Shown in pieces: positions 6,984-44,418 of a stretch of DNA of 64,000 bases. The position numbers and the translations under genes are program-made. The notes beneath the pieces are model-generated. The model was not told the DNA's origin. It did no database searches and worked only from the letters and a program-made list of their open reading frames with translations. Source of the stretch: Rhodomicrobium vannielii ATCC 17100. Its GTDB lineage: Bacteria > Pseudomonadota > Alphaproteobacteria > Rhizobiales > Rhodomicrobiaceae. Each line of letters starts with the position of its first letter. Positions within the stretch are counted from its first letter, which is position 1. The stretch lies in contig NC_014664.1 in assembly GCF_000166055.1 (NCBI RefSeq), forward strand, positions 3,441,501 to 3,505,500, in the 5' to 3' direction.

Positions 6984-7916
6984 TTATTCAAAGAAATCTT
7001 CGTCCAGCCTTTTGACATGCAGCGTTTCTTCGATCCGACAGCCGATATTGTAGCGGATCATGAGCCGCGTAAGGTGTTCGCCGTCGATCAGCACGATGCG
7101 TTTGCTTAGATAGTCGGCCGTTTCGCGCGCGCTCGCCGTGAATGCTGACGTGGTGACGAACAGGCCCTTGGCGGCCTTGTGCCGACCAAGGCTGCCGAAA
7201 AAGTCACGAATCGCGCCCGACCCCACGGTGTTGCCCGCCGCGTAGCGCTTGGCCTGGATATAAAAGCGGTCGAGCCCAAGCGCGTCCTGATCGATGACCC
7301 CGTCCACGCCGTCATCGCCGCTTCCGCCCAAGGCGCGGCCTGCCTCCGCTGCCGAACCTCCATACCCCATGGCGAGCAGAAGGTTCACGATAAGCCGCTC
7401 GAAAAACTCAGGGGGCGCGGCACGCACCCGATCCAGCAATTCCTGAGCAAGAGCCGCCTCGATACGCCGATGCGCTGTTCTCATCACCTCGTCGGGTGTC
7501 TGATCGGCACTGCTTTCAGCGGCAAGGGACGGGGCCTCTTCAAACGATGCCGCCGAACGATCCGTAAACAGCCGGAATTCCTCAAACCGGCTCAAGAACC
7601 GATTGTCTATGCGGTCGGGGTTTGCCGCCAGCACCTCGCTTCCGCGCGGCGTGATACGGAAATGGCCACGTCGTGTGTTTTCGACCAAACCCGCCTTGGC
7701 AAGATAGGTCTTTGCCCAATGGACCCGGTTGGCGAACAAGGTCTGTCGCCCGGACGGCAGCAAGATCGCGCGGTCTTCATCGCTCAAGGCCAGAGCTTCC
7801 GCCAGCGCACGAACAACGTCGCCAATGCGCACTTCTCCGCTATTGGCAGCCTTGAGCACCGGCAGCATGAGGCTCTGGTAATCGGGAATTGGCGATTCGG
7901 GAGTGACGGTGCTCAT
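6984..7916 (-). CDS. mrr: Mrr-type restriction endonuclease
   Basis: 310 residues from ATG at 7916, whose ATGA overlaps the stop of the methylase gene upstream, so the two are translationally coupled. The N-terminal 100 residues form a winged-helix Mrr_N domain (RVHWAKTYLAKAGL, FRITPRGSEVL). The C-terminal domain has the Mrr nuclease signature: GYGG, GGSGDDGVDGVI, then FYIQAKRY (D...Q-x-K), and GLFVTTSAFTASARE. Mrr enzymes cut DNA carrying foreign methylation (type IV restriction). The reading is intact, unlike its two neighbours. A GTG two codons upstream is an alternative start. Confidence 0.85.
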   Translation of the reverse strand: MSTVTPESPIPDYQSLMLPVLKAANSGEVRIGDVVRALAEALALSDEDRAILLPSGRQTLFANRVHWAKTYLAKAGLVENTRRGHFRITPRGSEVLAANPDRIDNRFLSRFEEFRLFTDRSAASFEEAPSLAAESSADQTPDEVMRTAHRRIEAALAQELLDRVRAAPPEFFERLIVNLLLAMGYGGSAAEAGRALGGSGDDGVDGVIDQDALGLDRFYIQAKRYAAGNTVGSGAIRDFFGSLGRHKAAKGLFVTTSAFTASARETADYLSKRIVLIDGEHLTRLMIRYNIGCRIEETLHVKRLDEDFFE

Positions 7917-10849
7917 CCGCACACCTCGACGGTCTCGGATACGTATGCACGGGTAGCTTTGCTTTGCTCTGCGGCCCGCTCCTGGTTGAGCCGGAATAGG
8001 CGGGCAAGAATTTCATCGTCGGTCAGTTTCCCGGCGCGGAAGTCTGCGCCCCAGCCATATGCGTCCGCAACCGCCTCATCAAGCGCTCTGTGCGCATGAT
8101 CGAGCCATGCGGGGCGCGCGTTATAAAGGTTGGTGAGGGTGCGCTTGGCCAGCTCCTTTGCTGCGGCATCGTTTACCGGCAGGACGCGATCCGGATAGCC
8201 GGGCACGACCTCGGGCTCGCGTCGCACGAGGTCCGGCGGATTAAGCCAGTTCTCGCGCAGTTCATTGAGCCTCGCGGCGGCCAAGGCGATAGCCTGTGCG
8301 CGGGGGTCGTCGGCATAAATGGCAGCGGAAATGTCGGGGGTGAGGCCTTCCGGAAAAGGGAACGTCAAGAATACTTCCGTGTTCGAATAAGTGATGTCGT
8401 TTCCCGCACCTATCCACGAACACTTATTAAAAGTCCAAACATCATGGAATTTGGAGTGTAATATTCCGAGTGTCGTAAAGTCATCCTTAGCAAATACGAC
8501 GAGCTTTTGATCAGGCAGCACGGAAGACGGCAGAAAGCCAAATGTCCGATAGCTCGATACCATTGGTGTGCCGATGTAACGGCTAAATCCGTTCAGAGCT
8601 TCCCTCATTTTCGGGCGTGATCGAGCATGTCGCCACCAAACTTCTCGTTCAATCTTCGCCCGTACAGCAAATGAGCCATCATTTTTGAGCCGCTGACGGT
8701 AGGGTCGCACCCGCTTCTCGATATACGCATACGGCGTTTCATAATATGATGACTCTTTTTCGGACACCTCAGTCCCGAAGTCGATAACCCACTTGTCGGG
8801 GCGCAGCCCGTTGAAATCGTCTCCGTTGAGACTTGGCTTCAAAACGTCGCTGTTTGCTCGCCCGTTTACGTTACGTGGTGCGGCCAGCATTGCCCTAGCC
8901 AACGCGGCGGGGAGTTCAAACTCTCCATTCAATATTACCCCTACAAAGCAAACGCCCTTATTCTGATCGAGCCGCTGTGTTCTGGTTAAATCCAAGCCGT
9001 TCGAAGCGGCCGTTTGGCCATTGGTAACGTCGAAGCAGACGAGCGAAACCCGCACTGCGGCTCCTTCAATAGTCCATTCTTCGTCGCTCCATGCAGCGAA
9101 AATTCGCCCCTTGTCGACAATGTTCTTGAGCGGTTCCCTGTTAGCCCCGCTCCGGATCGAATTAGTCGCTACCAATCCGGCGCGTTCGAGTTTGCCCTCT
9201 AGCATGTTTGCAAATGCGCTAGCAAACCAGTAACACACCAGATCGACGCCGCTTGGCACTTCCGGCCATGCCTGGCGTAAGGCTAGCGTGTAAGCCTCGC
9301 CTAATTCGCCGATCATTTACTTGTTGCCTAAGAACGGCGGATTCCCAACGACCACGTCCGCTGAGGGCCATTCCGCCCGCGTGCCGTCGAGGGCGAGAAC
9401 GGCATCTCGGTTCTCGATGTTTTCCAGCGTCCGCAGGATCGGATTTCGCGCCGCATCAAAACCGTTGCGGCGCATCCATTGGATTTCGCCGATCCATACC
9501 GAAACTCGCGCCAGTTCTGCTGCATAGGGATTGATTTCGATGCCAAACACGTTTTCCGGCCCGACAGACGGGGCAAATCGCCCGAGCCCCAGCGCTTCGG
9601 CGTCGAGATTGGCGCGGTGCTCTATATCCTTCAGCGCCAGAAGCGAAAGATAAAGAAAATTGCCTGAGCCGCACGCGGGATCGAGCACTCGGAAGTTGCG
9701 AAGCCGTTCAACGAATTTCGAATGATGCTCTTTGGCCGCTCGCAATGCCGCTTCTTCGGCGCGGCGAGCTACCATAAACACCTTGCGGGCCTCGGCCTGT
9801 GTCGCCGGAACGCGAGCCCGCGCTTCGGCAGCCTTGTCCATCTGGCCTGCGATGGCGGCCTTCGCTTCAGTCCATTCGCGCTCAAGCGGCTCGATGATCA
9901 CCGGCCGCACAATCTGCATGATCTTGTCGCGATCCGTATAGTGCGCCCCAAGCTGGCTGCGCTTGTTGGGATCGAGCCCGCGTTCAAATAAGGTGCCGAA
10001 AATTGAGGGATCAATTTCCGACCAGTCAAGTCGCGCGGCGGCAAGCAGGTTGGCTATGTCGTCAGCCTCAAGCGGCAAGGCGCTGTCATCGTCGAAAAGG
10101 CCGCCGTTGAACCATTCGACTTGTTCAAAGCCCACCATGCCGCCTGAACGCATCGCAGAAAACAGGGTTTGGGCATGGGCGGAGAACTGGCTCGGATTGC
10201 TCCGGCTCGCCTCCAGCATGCGCGTGAATATCGCGTCCGGTAACAGACGAACGTCTTCGGCGAACATGCAGAAGACCAGACGATTGACGAAATGGGCAAC
10301 CTGATGAGCCTCGTTCCCACGGTCGCGGAGCCGTTGAGCGAGGGAAGCGAATTCCCGTGCCGCTTCCTCGGTCAGCATTTGACGGGTTTTAGCCGGGCGC
10401 AACCTTTCTGGGTCTTCGAAGCAGGCGCGCAGCAAGTCGCGCTTCGCCCCATTGGCTAGGTCTTCCAGCGTGATTTCGTGGACCTGCTGGACCGTGTTTG
10501 TCCAGTTGGTGTGGATGCGAATGCGCTCCATGTCGGACACGATCAGGAGCGGCGGGCTTTCAAGAGCGATTGAGTAGCGAAGAAGCTGGTCGAACGCCTT
10601 TTGAAGGTTGGCGGCGTGTCCCTTGTATTCCCAGGCGAAGCAGCCCTTTCGCCAAACATCAGCCCAGCCTTCGCCGCCACTCGTTTTTGTCGCGCCCTTC
10701 TCGAACGTGAACCACGTCCCTTTCGGATCGGCTTTGATCGGGTCTTCAATGCCGAGCAGGCGACAAATGTCGTTGAAGTGGCTTTGGGAGGCGGATCGCT
10801 CCTTGAGCTCGACGTTGCGCCATTTTGAAAGGAACTCGTGCGGGGTCAT
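7913..10849 (-). pseudogene. MmeI-like restriction-methylase gene split by an in-frame ochre stop
   Basis: Two readings in the same frame, 10849-9320 and 9316-7913, are separated only by TAA at 9317-9319. The N-terminal part begins MTPHEFLSKWRN and carries a nuclease-like FAWEYKG motif, then the adenine methylase motifs LDPACGSGNFLYL (motif I) and NPPFLG (motif IV). The stop falls three residues after NPPF. The C-terminal part starts at once with MIGELGEAY and LVCYWF, and ends with the target-recognition-like TEVFLTFPFP and LTNLYNARPAWLDHAH stretches. Joined, it is about 979 residues, the usual size for class I SAM-dependent MmeI/type IIG enzymes. One base change (for example TTA to TAA) accounts for the break. 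The ATG at 10849 fits the family start. Confidence 0.8.
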
Positions 10850-11384
10850 GCGTTCTCGCATCAATGGCTCAGCCCCTAACCAGAGCGTCGCGCGCAAAAG
10901 GGCGATCAAAAATCACTTCGCAACCGAACAGACGTGCGCCGACCTTACGACGACTCACGCTTTGCCATTTATGACTGAATTACTATTTTAGGCAATCGCG
11001 GCGCGTTGCATTGCGTCAATCAAAAAACGCCATTGCTTTCACCCAAGGGGCGTTAACAGTAAAGGTCATCCGTCCGGTCCCAGCAAACAGGCGGCGGTTA
11101 TATTCCGCATGTCTGACTTTCGCGGCGTCCGTTCCTCTCGTCAAGCATCGAGAGCGGAAAGAGCATCACCTATCTACCCGGGTAGATTCCTCTCAGGGCC
11201 TTATCCATTGCGGTGTCCAAACGGTTGCCTCGCCGCCGTGTCCGGAAATCATGTCGCCTTGAGCGGTGTATCGTTCACTTTCGAAACGCCGATGATAAGA
11301 CCACGCGCGCCAGCAGGTGTCGAAGGCGCCTCTTAATGAGCCAGGTCGAACATTCGACCTGTGCACGCATGGAGCGGCTTGCTA
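10850..11384. other. Gene-free stretch upstream of the restriction operon
   Basis: No convincing gene on either strand. It should hold the promoter of the leftward restriction operon. It contains the palindrome at 11173-11186 and ends at the TA target of the IS630 copy. Confidence 0.5.
11173..11186. repeat. Island palindrome, copy 1
   Basis: TCTACCCGGGTAGA, a perfect 14-base palindrome (16 bases with the flanking A and T). One of four related copies in non-coding parts of the island (others at 12584, 13803 and 27790). The right-hand flank (TTCCTCTCAGGGC) also resembles that of the other copies, so all four share orientation. It lies about 320 bases upstream of the restriction operon. Confidence 0.6.
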
Positions 11385-12467
11385 GTGCACTGACTCATTC
11401 AGAAGGTGCAGATTGAGGCGGTTGAGCTTGTCGAAGATTTCATCGGCGGTTTTGGTCCAGACGAAGGGTTTTGCGTTCCGGTTGTGATCGGCGATGTAGC
11501 GCTTGATGGCGTCTTCGAGGTCGGCGACGGATTTGAAGACGCCACGACGGATGCGCCGCCGGGTAATGGCGGAGAAGAAGTTTTCGACCGCGTTCAGCCA
11601 GGACGCCGAGGTCGGCGTGAAGTGAAAAACCCACCTCGGATGATCCGCCAGCCAGGCGTCCACCTTGGGATGCTTGTGGGTTCCGTAGTTGTCCAGAATG
11701 ACGTGGATGATCTTGCCGGCTGGGACCTTGCGCTCCACGGCGTTGAGGAATTTGATGAACTCCTGATGGCGGTGGCGCTTCATGCAGCGGCCGAGCACGG
11801 TTCCATCCAGCACGTTGAGTGCGGCGAACAGCGTGGTGGTTCCGTTGCGCTTGTAATCGTGGGTCATGGTCGCGCATTTGCCGGGCTTCAACGGCAGGCC
11901 CGGTTGAGTGCGGTCGAGCGCCTGGATCTGGCTCTTCTCGTCGATGGACAGGACCACGGCATGGCAGGGCGGGCTCATGTAGAGGCCCACCACATCCTCG
12001 ACCTTTTCGGCGAAGGCGGGATCGTTCGACTTCTTGAACGTGCGCAAGCGGTGCGGCTGAAGGCGGTGGGCTCCCCAGATGCGCTGCACCGTGCGCAAGC
12101 TGACGCCCGCCGCCTTGGCGACAGCGCGTCCGGTCCAATGCGTGGCGTTTCCGGGGGGCTCGGAACACGGCAGCGCCAGCACTTTCGCGACGCTCTTCGC
12201 TGACAAAGGCGGCTTGCCTGGCTTGCGGGTCTGGTCGCGCAACAGCCCGTCCACCCCTTTTTCGGCGTAGCGCCGCTGCCAACGCCATACGGCTGGCCGG
12301 CTGACGCCGCTTAAGCGGGCGACGTCGAAAACGGAACGGCGCTCAGCAGAATGAAGCACGATCTTTGCCCGCTGCGCGTGCTTCTGCGGGCTGTTGCGGT
12401 CCCCGATGACCGCCGCCAAACGTGAGCGGTCTTCGGACGAGAGAAGGATGCAGACGGTTTGAGCCAT
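11382..12467 (-). CDS. IS630-family transposase
   Basis: 361 residues. The N-terminal 110 residues are a helix-turn-helix DNA-binding region (VARLSGVSRPAVWRWQRRY). The DDE catalytic core follows: VLSIDEKSQIQALDRTQPG (first Asp), HVILDNYGTHKH (second Asp), and TPTSASWLNAVENFFSAI (Glu). All three residues are present. The stop codon TAG is not wholly inside the element: it is made from the last C of the left end plus the target TA, so the gene needs the flanking target to terminate. Confidence 0.92.
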   Translation of the reverse strand: MAQTVCILLSSEDRSRLAAVIGDRNSPQKHAQRAKIVLHSAERRSVFDVARLSGVSRPAVWRWQRRYAEKGVDGLLRDQTRKPGKPPLSAKSVAKVLALPCSEPPGNATHWTGRAVAKAAGVSLRTVQRIWGAHRLQPHRLRTFKKSNDPAFAEKVEDVVGLYMSPPCHAVVLSIDEKSQIQALDRTQPGLPLKPGKCATMTHDYKRNGTTTLFAALNVLDGTVLGRCMKRHRHQEFIKFLNAVERKVPAGKIIHVILDNYGTHKHPKVDAWLADHPRWVFHFTPTSASWLNAVENFFSAITRRRIRRGVFKSVADLEDAIKRYIADHNRNAKPFVWTKTADEIFDKLNRLNLHLLNESVH

Positions 12468-12524
12468 GCCTGAAGCATGCCTTGCTTCGTCTGCTTTGTG
12501 AATCCTATGTTTGCGTCAGTGCAC
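11385..12524 (-). mobile_element. IS630-family insertion sequence
   Basis: A 1140-base element flanked by TA at 11383-11384 and 12525-12526, the TA target duplication of IS630 elements. The ends are inverted: GTGCACTGACTCA at the left, and its mirror GTGCACTGACGCA read inward from the right. It holds one transposase gene reading leftward. Both ends and the gene are intact, so the copy may be active. It separates the two palindrome copies at 11173 and 12584. Confidence 0.9.
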
Positions 12525-12583
12525 TAGATTCCGCCAGGAGATTGGGGATTTCGCAAGCGGCGCGCGCGAAGGCGCCGCCTGCG

Positions 12584-12597
12584 TCTACCCGGGTAGA
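12584..12597. repeat. Island palindrome, copy 2
   Basis: TCTACCCGGGTAGA, identical in its 14-base core to copy 1. The flank TTTCTGCCAGC matches copy 4 (TTCTGCAAGC). It lies between the right end of the IS630 element and the stop of the small broken gene. Confidence 0.6.
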
Positions 12598-12630
12598 TTT
12601 CTGCCAGCCCTATTTCACTATCAGCTCGGT

Positions 12631-13487
12631 CTACTGATGCATGGCGAGGTGTTCCTGGAGGACTTCAATGGCGGCCATAGCTACATCAGGGCCGCAGGAG
12701 GCAGCAGCGGTCGCAAGCTTTTGCAGCAGGACATCGGGGTCCTGGTACTTCAACCGCTCCTCCAGCGTCATGCTGCCCATAAAGTCGCCGCAGATAAGCT
12801 CCAGGGCGACGTTGTCGTGAGCGGTTCCGGTGTCATGCTTCACCTTTTCGAGAGCCAACTCTACAATTTCGGCCTGCCCCTGATAAAGGCGAAAGGTCTT
12901 GACCTGTTTTTGCTCCTCGCCCGCTTCCAGGCTCTTGCCTTTCGCTTTCGCCTTCCGGACGAGTTCGTTGAGGTCACCCCTCGACATCTTTTCTGCCGCC
13001 TCAAGCCACTCCGCTGCGTTTTCGGGGGTAACGACGCCTGAGATCGCACGCAGCTTGGTCCAGCCGATGGCTTCAAGCTGCGCGGCAGAAATCTTGCAAT
13101 TCGAAAGCACGTCGTAGATGCGCATCAATACGCTCTCGCCCGCCTGATGCCCTTTCCCTTCTCGAGCCATTCATTAAAGGACGAGTAAGGAGCGAACCAG
13201 CCCTCTCGTTTCACGCGCAATAGCCGACCACCCATGCGGAAGGCCGTCTTGTCGTAAAGATTTGCCGAGGAGTCGATATCGCTCAGGGTCTCTTCGAGAT
13301 CTGCGTTCTCGATTTCATGAACGATGTCGCCAAGTTCGCTGTCGTAGGGCTCGGTCCATCCGGCAGGCGCGGGAAGGCTCGTCTCCGGCGCCTCAATTTG
13401 AAGCGCCGCTTCGACAAGCGCATCGTGACCAATAGGCACGCTTGCATCCTTCGGCCGAGTTATCTTCTTCTTGAAGGTGACGATCAT
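12631..13487 (-). pseudogene. Hypothetical mobile-element protein gene broken by one base
   Basis: Two overlapping frames, 13487-13125 (120 residues, ending IRRARAY) and then 13126-12631 (continuing MRIYDVLSNCKISAAQLEA). Between them the sequence is TATTGATGCGC; adding one G (TATTGGATGCGC) gives RARAYWMRIYDVL and a single protein of about 285 residues. I recall similar proteins with a run like F-x-EWxEKxxGIRRAxAYW-I from mobile elements but know no function. The C-terminal half is Lys/Glu-rich and helical. The break also creates a TGATG stop-start overlap, so the second half might be reinitiated. Confidence 0.55.
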
Positions 13488-13802
13488 TTGCGGAGGCCTT
13501 TCCTGGAAAATGGAGAGGCACCGGCACGCCTGCCGAAAGACATAGAGAGCCCCGAACAGTTTTCATGTCGGTGCCCTCCTTGGCTATGGCCAGACATCTG
13601 AGAACTCGGGATGATCCGTCCTCACCCTGCATATCGGGCTCGATGATCGAGCATGCGGGAGAAGACATCAGCACTCGATTTCCATCGACGTGCTGCGGGA
13701 GCGCAAAGCGCGGATACCGAGACGTTTCTCAGCGTCTGTCGGAGCAGAACGTAGGGTGCATTTATTTCAAAGGCAAGCAATCAACTGGCTTGAACGCGGT
13801 AG
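13488..13802. other. Gene-free stretch upstream of the reverse transcriptase locus
   Basis: No convincing gene on either strand; the open frames crossing it are Arg/Ser-rich and look like shadows. It must hold the promoter of the leftward small gene that starts at 13487, and perhaps that of the rightward RNA/reverse transcriptase unit. Confidence 0.4.
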
Positions 13803-13816
13803 TCCACCCGGGTAGA
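13803..13816. repeat. Island palindrome, copy 3
   Basis: TCCACCCGGGTAGA, one base off the perfect palindrome and identical in core to copy 4 at 27790. It sits 23 bases before the structured RNA element and 107 bases before the reverse transcriptase start, so it may be an operator or promoter element for that unit. Confidence 0.6.
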
Positions 13817-13838
13817 CACCGCACTGCCTTGGCGACAA

Positions 13839-13890
13839 GGAGGTCGATCCGCTGTAAAAAGCGGCAGGCGCACGGAAGTGCGCGACCTCC
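13839..13890 (+). ncRNA. Candidate structured RNA: three-way junction upstream of the reverse transcriptase
   Basis: GGAGGTCG (13839-13846) pairs perfectly with CGACCTCC (13883-13890). Enclosed are two hairpins: CCGC (13849-13852) with GCGG (13861-13864) over an 8-base loop, and CGCAC (13869-13873) with GTGCG (13878-13882) closed by GGAA, a GNRA tetraloop. Together this is a compact three-way junction. It lies 32 bases before the reverse transcriptase start. Several reverse transcriptase defence systems need a nearby structured RNA, so this could be the partner RNA; it could also be a leader that only controls translation. No homologue is known to me. Confidence 0.5.
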
Positions 13891-13896
13891 CTTTGA

Positions 13897-13921
13897 GCGC
13901 ACTCCAAGAAAGGAGATGCGC
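13897..13921 (+). promoter_or_regulatory. Hairpin covering the reverse transcriptase ribosome binding site
   Basis: GCGCACTCC (13897-13905) pairs with GGAG-A-TGCGC (13912-13921) around the loop AAGAAA, with one bulged A. The paired GGAG is the Shine-Dalgarno sequence for the GTG start at 13923, so the hairpin would hide the site and lower translation unless opened. Confidence 0.5.
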
Positions 13922-13922
13922 G

Positions 13923-15325
13923 GTGCCAGTTGCCCTGATCGAAGGCGTTCTGTTCGAACACAATCTTTCCGACGCCTATCTGAAACGGGTGCGGAAGGAG
14001 ATCGGTCTCGCGCGCAAGACCACAAAAAAGCTGACCCAGACCTCATTCAGTCAATCCAGAACGGTGACTAGCTGGCGAAGCAGGAAGCCGTCACCGCACT
14101 TCTCACCGATCAGGGCGTCAAGCTCGTCTCCGCCCTCAGCGCCAACCGGAAGCTCGCGGCCTCCAAATGCAAGACCCTCGACGAATGCCTTGAGGTCTCG
14201 ACCACGCTCGACCTTTGGCATCCCATCACGGAGCCGGTGCGGGTCTGGCCGATCATGAAGTCGAACGGCGGCTATCGCATGATCCACGATCACGGTTTGC
14301 GGCACAGGACGGCGCAGCACCTCGTCAAGCGCGTGGTCGACGTCTTCTTTGTGCCCCGCTCCTTCCAGTATACCCATCTCGGCTATCAGGCCGCGATCCA
14401 GCAGACGAAGGCTTTCATCACGCAAGGTTATGTCCATGTCGCGCATCTGGACATCACCGACTTCTTTGGCAGCTTCGACCTTGAGAAGCTGCTTTCCGAG
14501 CTGCCCTTCAAGCAGGCAACGGCAGGAGCGCCCTCCAATGGGGGGCTACCGCCCCAATCGGGGAAAGGGAAAGGACTGCCGCTCCCGCATGAAGTGGTGG
14601 AGCATGTCGTCACAGGACGATACATGACTGTGCGTTTGAAGCTCAGGAAGAATCCCTATTGGAATTCTCCCCTCCCTTCCCCTGCACAGTTGCTTGACAC
14701 CGCCCGCCTGGGAATTCCCCAGGGCTCGGCTTGTTCATCGGTCGTGGCCGCGTATACGGTTTCGGGTCTGGAGTGGTCTCCCACTCCGGATGTGAAGCTC
14801 GTCAATCTGGCTGACGATTTCCTGCTTCTCGCAAAAAGCCCAAAGCTTTGCGCGGAGGAAACCGATGCACTCGCCGAGACCATAGGGAAGCTCCCGGGCG
14901 GGACTTTCAAGCTCAAGCTCAAGACCGCGACAGAGGCCAGCAACGGATTTCAGTTTCTGGGGCACCACATTCAACTCGTCGACGGCTCGCTTCATGTCGC
15001 CCCGACCCTTGCGGCCGACGAGGACCTTGTAGGGAAGCTCGACGACCTCGAAGTGAAACTCGGCGAGATCGTGTTTCCCAAGCTTTCCAAGACCGTCAAG
15101 GTCGACAAGAAGGCCGCGATCCAATCCCTCGCGAAGTCCGCCGCCATTCTGGCTGGATGGAAGTCCGCCTTCTCCCAATGCTCGGACATCGACGGCTTCA
15201 TCGCGCCCTATGTCGATACGCTGAGCTGGTGGCTCGATGAGATCGGCGCGACCGTCGACGACCTCAAACAGGCTATCATCCCCGATATGGAGTACACGCC
15301 AAGTTTCTATGCCTTGGGGAAATAA
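13923..15325 (+). pseudogene. Reverse transcriptase gene of unassigned type, with one frame change and one stop
   Basis: A GTG at 13923 opens a 36-residue N-terminus (ALIEGVLFEHNLSDAYLKRV...). At A-AAA-AAG (14024-14030) the sense moves to the -1 frame, giving ADPDLIQSIQNGD, then TAG at 14069-14071, then LAKQEAVTALLTDQG and on without a break to 15325, about 467 residues in all. The polymerase motifs are clear: NGGYRMIHD, the catalytic HLDITDFFGSF, GIPQGSACSS, VNLADDFLLL (LADD in place of the usual YADD) and GFQFLGHHI. All three catalytic Asp are present. I see no retron NAxxH or VTG motif and no group II intron maturase domain. The conserved core lies wholly after the stop and could start at GTG 14237. 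Confidence 0.75.
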
Positions 15326-15349
15326 GTCAGGAATGGGAGCAAGAACGCC

Positions 15350-15578
15350 GTGTTCGACAAGCATGCCGCGATCCAACAGCTCGCGAAGCCCGCCGCGATC
15401 GTCCATGGCTGGCAGGCCGCATTTTCGCAGTGCGACTGCATTGACGCAGTCCTGTCGCCCTACCCCGAAAATCAGGCCTCATGGCTGGAGACCATTGGCG
15501 CTACCGAGGCTCAGATGAAACACGCCAATCACGTCGGATATGGTGTACCGCCCTGGGTTCTATGCCTTCGGGAAGTGA
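15350..15578 (+). pseudogene. Diverged tandem copy of the reverse transcriptase C-terminal module
   Basis: Immediately after the reverse transcriptase stop, the text FDKHAAIQQLAKPAAIVHGW, then AFSQCDCID and WLETIGATEAQMKHA, repeats residues of the enzyme's own tail (VDKKAAIQSLAKSAAILAGW, AFSQCSDID, WLDEIGATVDDLKQA). After one frame change near 15527 it ends VYRPGFYAFGK and a stop, against EYTPSFYALGK in the enzyme. So a unit of about 75 residues is present twice. It is either the end of a second, mostly deleted reverse transcriptase gene or a module that repeats in this family. Confidence 0.65.
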
Positions 15579-15871
15579 TGCGGGTTATCGAGATAAATGC
15601 AGGCGTCAGCGCGACGAGGTCGTCGCGAAGGGTGATGACCATTTCGGTCGTTATGCCACTGCTGAGCGCCGAAGAGTTCTACGGTTTATTCACGGCTTCC
15701 GAATTGTCGCCCGACCGCGAAGAGCAAGCGCGGCATTCTCATTCTCGGACGCGGATGCACTATGTCGCTCGCGAGAAGATATTGTGCCGAGATGGTCGCT
15801 TGCGGACGCTCGCTCCTATCGAACGGAAGTTCGCTTGTCGCAACAAAGCGGACTTCCGCAAGGAACATTAG
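15578..15871 (+). CDS. Possible small protein after the reverse transcriptase module
   Basis: 97 residues beginning MRVIEINAGVSATRSSRR, from an ATG that overlaps the stop of the preceding module as TGATG. Composition is mixed (SAEEFYGLFTASELSPD, then an Arg/His-rich tail). I recognise no family and there is no separate ribosome site, so it is only a possibility. Confidence 0.2.
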   Translation: MRVIEINAGVSATRSSRRVMTISVVMPLLSAEEFYGLFTASELSPDREEQARHSHSRTRMHYVAREKILCRDGRLRTLAPIERKFACRNKADFRKEH

Positions 15872-15930
15872 GGTGGGGCCGTCTTTAAGACGGCTTTGGC
15901 TACAAGAGCTTGCCTTGGCGCATATCGCCC

Positions 15931-16482
15931 TCAGGCTTCGATCTCATCCGCCTGCCCCGAAAAAAGCCAGTCAGAGGACAGGATATGCCCCTCGCACAAG
16001 ACGTCAAGATCCTCCTCTCTCAGGGACGAAGAACCCTTTTCAAGCAACAGTGCGGTCTCGATGCTGATCCCGCACGGCGCATAGAACTGAGTCAGTTCCA
16101 TGTTGAGGACGCGCCTGGCGATCCGCGCCCTCAGGGCAATAGCGCGGGGCGAAGCATCGTCGGGAAACAGGTTTCCATGCCAAGGCATGAGCCTCTCGGC
16201 AAACTCGATGCGTCCCATTGATTCCAGAATGATGAAAGTCTCCAGCCAAAGACTTTCGGGCAGATCATTGATTGTCCTCCCCGGAGTATCCGCCGATTTG
16301 AGCATTCGCAGCAGCCACTCCCCGGCAAGCTCGCCAGAAGACATGCCTTGTTGCTGTATGTGAGGATCCGTACCTGCGGCGACGGCGGCTTCGATCCAAT
16401 GACGGGCTTTCCGTTCTCTGGCGCGGGCGTGCGCGATGCCGGCAAAGCTGAAGTTGGCGGACTCGAACATATCGATCGTCAT
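15931..16482 (-). CDS. Hypothetical protein
   Basis: 183 residues from ATG at 16482, chosen because GGAG lies six bases upstream. The product is soluble and helical (SFAGIAHARARERKARHW, then a middle with LESLWLETF-type segments and RRVLNMELTQF). There is no signal peptide or membrane segment and no family that I recognise. It is the only gene between the reverse transcriptase locus and the IS66 copy, pointing left, so its relation to either is unclear. Confidence 0.5.
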   Translation of the reverse strand: MTIDMFESANFSFAGIAHARARERKARHWIEAAVAAGTDPHIQQQGMSSGELAGEWLLRMLKSADTPGRTINDLPESLWLETFIILESMGRIEFAERLMPWHGNLFPDDASPRAIALRARIARRVLNMELTQFYAPCGISIETALLLEKGSSSLREEDLDVLCEGHILSSDWLFSGQADEIEA

Positions 16483-16812
16483 GAGTGTCTCCGTATATAC
16501 GCAGCACAATCCGGCGACGCACAGTGCGCGCGCCGATGGCTAAGCGGCAAATCTGTTGGACGTGTTCGGCAGAAGCGATGAAATGAATGATCGCTAACTG
16601 GCTTCTTTATTCCGGCCGTTTCTTCGGCAAGGTACCGAAGTCACGCGAGAAGCCTTCAGATCTACGAGACGTATCTGACGGGATTGAATTTAAGCGTCGG
16701 GAGCGTTCCTGGCTGTGCATCTTCTACTCGCTGACATCGGACTGTGTCTAAATCAGTAAAAATCTTTTACAAAAAGCGCAACCGTATTTTTGGCACGAAA
16801 CGGCCATATTTT
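16483..16812. other. Gene-free stretch before IS66
   Basis: I see no gene here. It is A/T-richer than the surroundings toward 16755-16812 and ends in the 8-base IS66 target CATATTTT (16805-16812). Confidence 0.4.
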
Positions 16813-27604: not shown

Positions 27605-27939
27605 GCTTCCTCCAACGGTGCATCAACCGGATAAGCCAAATATTTACCAAAACGCGAGTTAGTCAACTGATATCGCACTTTGGTTGTAATACGGCTGACC
27701 GATGTCTTCGTGGGTCGAAGCGCAGCGCGTGTTTCGGGACATCAACCCAGACTTGTGGAAAGTGAAAGTGGGCTGGTGATGCAGGGATGTCCACCCGGGT
27801 AGATTCTGCAAGCGCTGGGTGGCCCACCATCCAGACCAAGCCGGATAATCGCGCTGGACGCTGAATCCATTCGGGATTCTGATTCTTGAGGGAAGCGCGG
27901 CGTTGAGCCTGATCGGTTCCCGAGAGGAAGGCAAGCGCG
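27605..27939. promoter_or_regulatory. Gene-free stretch upstream of the integration module
   Basis: No gene seen. It holds palindrome copy 4 at 27790-27803 and must contain the promoter of the HTH gene and probably of the recombinase operon. Confidence 0.4.
27790..27803. repeat. Island palindrome, copy 4
   Basis: TCCACCCGGGTAGA, identical in core to copy 3; flank TTCTGCAAGC resembles copy 2. It lies 137 bases upstream of the HTH gene that opens the integration module, so it could be an operator or a recombinase-related site. Confidence 0.6.
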
Positions 27940-41503: not shown

Positions 41504-44418
41504 GCGAAACGAAAGAAACGGACTCGAAACCGGCGGCTGGCCGCAAGACGATGTCGCTGAATGTGAAGCGGACGGTCGAACAGGGCCACATCCGTCAGAA
41601 TTTCAGCCATGGCCGGTCGAAATCCGTTCTGGTCGAGACGAAGCGCAAGCGCCCCGGCACGGGGCCTGGGGTGGCGGATGAGCCGCAGCAAGCCCAGAAG
41701 CCCGCGCCGCAGAAGCCCGAGCATCGCGCCTTCCAGAAGCCAGGTCCCGAGCAGGGTGGCGACAAGCGGCCGCAGAAGGTTCTGCGCCAGCTCTCCGCCG
41801 GTGAGGTTGACGCACGTGCCCGTGCGCTGGTCGAGTCCCGCAAGCGCGAGGAAATCCTGAAGCGCGAGCGCGAGGTCGAAGACGCACGTCGCCGCGAAGA
41901 AGAGGCTCTGCGCGCGGTCGAAGACAAGAAGCGCGCCGCCGAAGAAGAAGCGGTCGCCAAGAAGCTTGAGGAAGAGAACGCTCAGCTTCGCGCCAAAGAA
42001 GCGGCTGAGCCGAAACCGGAAGCTCCGAAAGAACCCGCGAGACAGGAAGCTGCTCCTGCGGCTCCCGCTCCGCGCCCCACAAGTCGTTCGGCCGAGCCGC
42101 CGCGCCGTGTCGGTCCCGACACCGTGCGCGTTATAGCTCGTCCGCAGGACGACCGACGCCCGCCACGCGCTCCCGCTCCCGATGCTCGCACAGCCGATGC
42201 ACGGCCGACCGATGCACGTGGACCTGCCCGTGATGGAACGCGTCCCGCCGGGGCACGCCCGGATGGCGCCAGGCCTCAGGGTGGTGCCGGCGCTCGCGCT
42301 GGCGCTCCTGGTGCAAGGCCCGGCTTTAACGGTCCTCGCGGTGCCGCCGCCACGCCCGCGTCTTCGATCCCGGAAGTGGCCGCACGTCCCGATAGAACCC
42401 GCGATGTCGACGTCGGCGCTCGGGCCCGTGGTGCCGATACCGAGGAAGACGACCGTCGCGTGAAGCGCGGTCTGCCCGGCAAGGTCGCCACTCCCGCTCC
42501 CGTCAAGAAGACCGTTACGGAGCGGACAGGCCGCCAACGCCTCACGCTTTCGAACGCGCTCGACGATCAGCAGCGCGAACGCAGCCTCGCCTCCCTCAAA
42601 CGCCAGCGCGAACGTCAGAAGCTTCAGGCGTCCGGCGCGCGGCAGGAGCGTGTCAAGATTCAACGCACTGTCATTCTGCCCGAAGCGATCACCATTCAGG
42701 AACTCGCGAACCGCATGGCGGAACGCGCGGTCGACATCATCAAGTTCCTGATGAAGCAGGGCCAGATGCTGAAGATCAACGACGTGATCGACGCCGATAC
42801 CGCCGAACTCGTCGCCGAAGAATTCGGCCATAGCGTGAAGCGCGTCTCGGAAGAGGACGTCGAGGAAGGCTTCATCGGCGAGACCGACGATCCCGATACG
42901 CTTCAGTTCCGTGCGCCTGTCGTCACCATCATGGGTCACGTCGACCACGGTAAGACGTCGCTGCTCGACGCCATCCGCCACGCGAACGTGGTTTCTGGCG
43001 AGGCAGGCGGCATCACGCAGCACATCGGCGCCTATCAGGTGACGACGCCCAGCGGCGCGCCCGTGACCTTCATCGACACCCCTGGCCACGCGGCCTTCAC
43101 CGCGATGCGTGCCCGTGGCGCCAAGGTGACGGACATCGTCGTGCTGGTCGTCGCGGCCGACGACGGCGTCATGCCGCAGACGATCGAAGCCATCAATCAC
43201 GCCAAGGCGGCGGGTGTGCCGATCATCGTCGCCATCAACAAGATCGACAAGCCGGACGCGGATCCCCTGCGTGTGCGCACCGACCTCCTTTCCCACGATA
43301 TCGTCGTGGAAAGCATGGGCGGCGACGTGCTCGAAGTGGAAGTCTCGGCGAAGCAGAAGCTCAATCTCGACAGGCTTCTCCAGGCGATCGCCCTTCAGGC
43401 CGAGGTTCTCGAACTCACGGCCAACCCGGATCGTCCGGCGGAAGGCATCGTCATCGAGGCAAAGCTGGAACGCGGTCGCGGGCCGGTCGGCACCGTGCTC
43501 GTGCAGCGTGGTACGCTGAAGGTTGGGCAGATCGTCGTCGCCGGTCGTGCATGGGGCCGCGTTCGCGCGCTCATCGACGATAAGGGCGCGAACGTGGTTG
43601 CGGCAGGGCCATCGACCCCGGTCGAGGTGCTCGGTTTCGACAGCGCGCCGGATGCGGGCGATCAGCTCGCCGTGGTGGAAACCGAAGCGCGCGCTCGCGA
43701 ATTGACCGAACACCGCCAGCGCAAGCTGCGTGACGTGCGCTCGGTGGGCGCGGGTGCCCGCAGTTCGCTCGAACAGATGATGAAGCAAGCCGCCAAGGGC
43801 GGAAAGAAAGACTTCCTGCTCATCATCAAAGGCGACGTGCAAGGCTCGGTAGAGGCGATCAATTCCGCTCTCGAAAAGCTCGGCACGGACGAGGTCGAGG
43901 CGCGCATCATCCACTGGGGCGTGGGCGGCATCACGTCCTCGGACGTGGCGTTGGCCGAAGCCTCGGGCGCTGTCATCATCGCCTTCAACGTCCGCGCGGA
44001 CGCGCAGGCGAAGCAGCAGGCCGAGCGCGACGGCATCGAAATCCGCTACTACAACATCATCTACGACCTCGTGGACGATGTGAAAAAGGCGATGTCGGGC
44101 CTGCTTGCGCCGATCACGCGCGAAGAGTTCCTCGGCAATGCCGAAATCCTCGAGGTGTTCAACATCTCGAAGGTTGGCAAGGTCGCGGGTTGCCGTGTCA
44201 CGGAAGGCAAGGTCGAGCGCGGAGCGAGCGTGCGTCTGGTGCGCGACCACGTGGTTATCCACGAGGGCAAGCTTTCCACGCTCAAGCGCTTCAAGGACGA
44301 AGTCAAGGAAGTGGTCGTCGGGCAGGAATGCGGCATGGCCTTCGAGGGCAATCAAGACCTCAAGGCCGGCGACACGATCGAGTGCTTCCGCACCCATATC
44401 GAAACGCGGAGCCTGTAA
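41500..44418 (+). CDS. infB: Translation initiation factor IF-2
   Basis: 972 residues. A long charged N-terminal region, rich in Arg, Ala, Pro and Glu (to about residue 390), precedes the IF-2 core: the switch helix region ([20 protein letters not shown]), the GTPase G1 [17 protein letters not shown]3 [11 protein letters not shown]4 INKIDKP, and domains II-IV ending SLYRTHIE-like. It brings initiator tRNA to the 30S subunit. It is the last gene of the operon, followed by a terminator. The repeated [15 protein letters not shown] segment near residue 230 is low-complexity. Confidence 0.97.

Follow-up and report, generated by a model that had tools for sequence, protein, structure and literature searches.

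A candidate structured 5' leader of a decaying reverse transcriptase module in Rhodomicrobium vannielii

What is the role of a compact RNA fold predicted directly before a broken reverse transcriptase (RT) gene in Rhodomicrobium vannielii ATCC 17100? A sequence-only reading of the 64-kb stretch of DNA analysed here (the window) had proposed that it is a non-coding RNA serving the RT as template or partner. Here, the fold, the genes around it and their relatives in other genomes are examined, and this proposal is weighed against a leader acting in cis on RT translation, against the absence of any RNA function and against a mobile RNA.

Predicted fold at 13839-13890

The 52 nt at 13839-13890 (+) fold into a predicted three-way junction with a minimum free energy (MFE) of -30.2 kcal/mol, as had been proposed from the sequence. 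The closing stem GGAGGTC(G)/(C)GACCTCC joins 13839-13845 to 13884-13890 and has 7 bp in the MFE structure; the perfect 8 bp first described are reached only if the last G-C is assigned to the stem and not to the adjoining arm. Hairpin 1 (CCGCT/AGCGG, loop GTAAAA) has 5 bp and hairpin 2 (GCGCAC-GGAA-GTGCGC) has 6 bp, so both had been undercounted by one pair (4 and 5 bp), while the GGAA loop was correctly placed.

Such nesting had been called unlikely by chance, and in comparison with 200 dinucleotide shuffles (mean -15.8, sd 2.7) this is so (z -5.39, 0/200 as low). However, a scan of both strands of the 64 kb in steps of 3 (42,632 windows, each 52 nt long) finds -30 kcal/mol in 54 overlapping windows representing about 17 separate places, mostly simple hairpins with weaker z, and more extreme z at 43552+ (z -6.1) and 14752+ (z -5.9). 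The junction is the lowest multibranch fold of the window at its exact register. It is thus among the strongest folds of the window but not unique in this GC-rich 64 kb, and a scan this large in GC-rich DNA would yield some strong folds anyway. The fold at 14752-14803 (+), the z of which exceeds that of the junction, is a 52-nt hairpin inside the RT gene.

The RT module and its relatives

The RT gene (13923..15325, +) begins with GTG at 13923 and ends with a stop at 15323-15325, and is broken by the loss of one base near 14044 and by a TAG (14069-14071). Its frame is open over 14072-15322 and matches RVT_1. The earlier placement of the junction just before a reverse transcriptase is thus accurate as to position, but the gene itself carries a frameshift and a stop here. 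An intact version (467 aa, L004 3851-5254) is found in Rhodomicrobium sp. Az07. The divergent partner gene (12613..13487, -), which encodes a 'GWTK' protein of the phrog_17202 family, is likewise broken, by a 4-bp deletion near 13128, and is intact in Az07 as a 331-aa frame (L004 2527-3522). Phrog_17202 is a phage-related family: partner relatives occur in phages of Rhodobacter, Stenotrophomonas, Vibrio and Rhizobium, and the relatives in Rhodobacter phage RcZahn and on one Rhizobium plasmid each adjoin a RuvC-like resolvase gene. The whole module (12572..15325, unstranded, 2.75 kb) has 94% DNA identity to Az07, with unrelated flanks on both sides. Downstream of the RT gene, the C-terminal end of a second, related RT persists as a relic (15338..15575, +). 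The module in the window is dead or dying, and the intact copy is that of Az07. As both module genes are broken, the leader element in this genome is probably a remnant.

The genes flanking the RT in the window are an IS, a type IIG restriction-modification gene and the partner gene. The type IIG (MmeI-like) restriction-methylation gene at 7913-10909 (-) comprises two reading frames split near 9316 and is probably itself broken. Near the module in Az07 are a gene with a prokaryotic STING domain and a candidate PDC-M11A defence gene (L004 7739-8869 and 19-1161). The 5' region of the partner gene (13516-13627, -) is also structured, with the inverted repeat GGAGAGGCACCGGCA / TGTCGGTGCCCTCC; beside this repeat, a 78-nt stretch (13550-13627) is identical in Az07.

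The RT lineage is rare: apart from Az07, a single clear relative came to light, in a genome of the same order (G027; L011 754-2262, -); this RT has 502 aa and matches at 38% overall and 46% over the first matched half. No relatives were found in plasmids, phages or viral contigs, nor beyond the window among 385 genomes of the class and 398 of the phylum. Motif 5 of the G027 RT reads YVDN instead of YxDD; that of the Rhodomicrobium RT is LADD. Divergently transcribed upstream of the G027 RT is a gene whose product matches a 'GWTK' protein of a further Az07 locus (L022) with E 7e-12; that 'GWTK' protein is itself a match to the partner protein (E 1e-8). Thus, the arrangement of an RT with a divergent GWTK gene recurs in a second genus. 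Between these two G027 genes, no junction-like fold stands out, the best z among many windows being about -3.1; the 321 nt preceding the RT have a z of -0.3.

The leader block and its ribosome-binding site

The junction occupies the middle of a block of ~121 nt (13802..13922, +) that is 84% identical to a second, unlinked Az07 locus and ends at the RT start codon. From 5' to 3', the block comprises a palindromic site, the junction and a hairpin burying the RT ribosome-binding site. The whole leader has an MFE of -58.9 and a z of -5.3 in the window; the z of the Az07 leader is -4.3. The last hairpin (13897..13921, +), GCGCACTCC-AAGAAA-GGAG(A)TGCGC, pairs the RT Shine-Dalgarno (SD) sequence GGAG (13912-13915) with CTCC (13902-13905). 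The unpaired probability of the SD is predicted in silico to be ~0 in both RT leaders, window and Az07, and the predicted structure is, in this respect, that of a leader with a sequestered ribosome-binding site. One pair of this hairpin is disrupted in Az07, and one in the second copy.

The junction 5' arm starts with the SD-like AAGGAGGT and its 3' arm holds the complement ACCTCC, the two together forming the closing stem. One leader therefore has two SD-like and two anti-SD segments, which, judging from their complementarity, could exchange partners. The bacterial 16S rRNA 3' end reads AAGGAGGTGATCC, and positions 13837-13850 (AAGGAGGTCGATCC) are its complement save for one inserted C. No promoter was recognised for the leader in a scan for the sigma-70 consensus. 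Neither a gathering scan of the window nor an E-value scan of 13480-13960 matched an Rfam family, be it a group II intron, riboswitch or leader family; a sub-threshold sRNA match elsewhere in the region has E 1.4.

The 5' edge of the block carries the palindrome-derived site ACCCGGGTAGA (13806..13816, unstranded), which has 6 matches at 4 sites in the window versus 0.01 expected. The recurring palindrome, (T)CTACCCGGGTAGA(T/C), is found in the window at 11172-11187, 12584-12597, 13806-13816 and 27793-27803, and at L021 1501-1514 and L022 1497-1518. The exact 14-mer occurs three times in this genome, twice in Az07 and not at all in three other Rhodomicrobium genomes searched. In L022 and in the module, one of the sites stands immediately behind a GWTK gene. 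As the sites have no common flanking sequence, the palindrome is not an insertion end and resembles a binding site; at the edge of the block it looks operator-like, and we regard it as a putative binding site.

The reading we prefer, tentatively and with rather less than even confidence, is that 13839-13890 forms the core of a ~121-nt structured 5' leader that would gate RT translation in a two-gene module. It is put first because the block ends at the start codon and because the ribosome-binding site is closed off in its last predicted hairpin. A transcript starting near the palindrome would carry the leader, the two domains of which would keep RT translation closed; a bound factor would then remodel the leader and open the start, and this factor may be the RT itself, a ribosome docked on AAGGAGGT in the junction, or some other protein. 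The block resembles mRNA leaders with a sequestered ribosome-binding site in having a junction and an SD-burying hairpin immediately before the start codon, but unlike such structured leaders it matches no Rfam family. The leader reading is consistent with the fold and its z-scores, the burial of the SD in both RT leaders, the end of the block at the start codon, the two SD-like and two anti-SD segments, the palindrome and the recurrence of GWTK at G027. Against it stand the failure to recognise a promoter, the absence of compensatory changes, the broken SD-hairpin pair in Az07 and in the second copy, the position of the second copy, from which it could not gate its neighbouring gene in this way, and the lack of a recognisable counterpart at G027.

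Classification of the RT and the partner RNA reading

In profile searches, CRISPR-associated RTs rank first (E 1.5e-17), followed by RT-Cas1, with group II maturase and UG/DRT profiles weak; the best matches are PDLC01136, RT-Cas1 and TIGR04416, the last at 49.6 bits, far below its 300-bit cut-off. Matches among solved structures are Cas6-RT-Cas1 (7kft) and group II RTs including GsI-IIC RT. An AlphaFold model of the RT (3 sequences) has pLDDT 37 and is unusable. By profile, the RT is a rare lineage nearest to CRISPR-associated/group II-like RTs. A survey from 2014 lists an R. vannielii RT, which may be the one here or another gene, as CRISPR-RT4 (PMC4244168).

The RT was compared with several known classes. 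PADLOC matches to UG17 (E 2e-7), Drt9 (8e-6) and Drt3a (0.003) are all much weaker than the CRISPR RT match, and NCBIfam DRT models give no match; with DRT-type matches (E 2e-7 to 1e-5) so far below CRISPR RT, the RT is not placed in the UG/DRT class 2 family. A group II intron is not indicated, as Rfam scans around the RT find no ribozyme domains. Context does not make it a CRISPR-associated RT either: there are no adjacent cas genes, and a repeat search of 12400-16700 finds no array. The RT thus shares its best profile matches with CRISPR-associated and group II intron-like (G2L) RTs but, unlike them, is not accompanied by a cas gene, CRISPR array or group II intron RNA. Like a retron, the locus has an RNA just 5' of the RT gene; unlike one, it lacks NAxxH, a VTG after motif 5 (the sole VTG precedes motif 4), a retron RT family match (no retron profile comes near its cut-off) and a recognised msr/msd inverted-repeat arrangement. 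A diversity-generating retroelement does not fit, since motif 4 is GIPQGS, not SQ-type, and the second copy of the block is intergenic; A-specific changes are ruled out in that copy, which differs at G, C and T too.

A trans-acting ncRNA bound by the RT as template or scaffold, of which the junction would be a part, is possible but not probable. By analogy with DRT systems, the position and size of the block fit: the DRT2 (280 nt) and DRT9 (188 nt) RNAs each lie immediately upstream of their RT (PMC12489045), and the ~121 nt found here, within a module of RT and partner gene, are close to the 137 nt of the DRT10 RNA (PMC12632851). The surroundings are also of defence type, with the type IIG restriction enzyme in the window and the STING-domain gene and PDC-M11A candidate in Az07. 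The persistence of a copy without an RT gene is easier to understand for a trans-acting RNA. However, the RT is not DRT2, DRT9 or DRT10 by profile and falls outside the families known to use an ncRNA, with its strongest profiles to CRISPR-associated/group II-like RTs and weak ones to Drt9/UG; the block has no Rfam match; and the distant homologue at G027 has no recognisable counterpart. Covariation is absent among the three sequences available, and fold retention in the second copy is not significant. The block also overlaps the RT's own ribosome-binding site, and as the adjoining hairpin is predicted to pair the RT SD along its whole length, a cis-acting leader explains the anatomy equally well. 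The proposal from sequence alone may be right, but it is not favoured over a leader. Its fuller form, a new rare RT module in which an RT and divergent GWTK would be joined by a ~121-nt RNA as RT partner or template that is also able to exist stand-alone elsewhere in the genome, is doubtful.

The second copy and conservation

Az07 has the leader block once more, on a different contig, where a histidine-kinase gene and an exbD-like gene flank it and neither RT nor partner-gene sequence is found close by. The homology extends from near the palindrome to the RT start codon. This copy lies 140 nt before the histidine-kinase gene, and as the block stops short of the start of that gene, it could not gate the kinase gene as the leader would gate the RT. 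In the genome of the window, the corresponding kinase locus has no such copy. No convincing copy was found outside these two strains among 199 genomes of the order and 385 of the class; weak covariance-model matches elsewhere (E 0.007-0.09 per genome, over hundreds of genomes) are at chance level and have no RT or partner relative alongside.

The covariation check suggested from the sequence could draw on a single close homologue, in which all 52 nt are identical, and on a single diverged, unlinked copy, and pair counting in these three sequences gives 0 double (compensatory) changes. The identity to Az07 is not evidence of RNA constraint, as the adjoining RT differs at only ~4% of four-fold degenerate sites, and at this divergence the identity of 52 nt is expected about 1 time in 8. 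A junction is also predicted for the second copy, its closing stem lying further out, at AAGGAGGT/ACCTCCTT. This retention is no better than chance, as 22% of 5000 simulations with an equal number of random changes do equally well, and a junction of some kind is kept in 72%.

These figures are compatible with the view that there is no RNA function, the structure arising incidentally from a DNA element or from high GC content and the second copy being the scar of a lost or degraded RT module. The equally strong folds at about 17 places in the window, the decay of the module (broken RT, broken partner and RT C-terminal relic) and the position of the second copy in an Az07-specific junction are consistent with it. 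However, we consider it unlikely, as a multibranch fold of z -5.4 stands directly at the RT start, the copies retain hairpin 1 with two changes that are both limited to its loop, and a lone scar ending at the start codon would be a coincidence. A mobile RNA, where the RT would insert copies of the ~121-nt block elsewhere and the Az07 copy would be one such insertion, could account for a block that occurs twice, that has its 3' edge at the RT start and that lacks both RT and partner sequence at the second place. It is very improbable, as there is only one extra copy, none convincing beyond the two strains in the genomes searched, and as no target-site duplication or clean empty site is definable, the ~280 bp from kinase to exbD being different throughout.

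Implications

We know of no ncRNA partner of this kind for the CRISPR/group II-like RT lineage. If the RNA binds the RT, the locus would represent an RT-RNA system in that lineage, one that has a second RNA copy at an unlinked locus and a divergent partner protein that recurs. If, as we tentatively prefer, the block is a leader, it would be an unusual compact gate on an RT gene.
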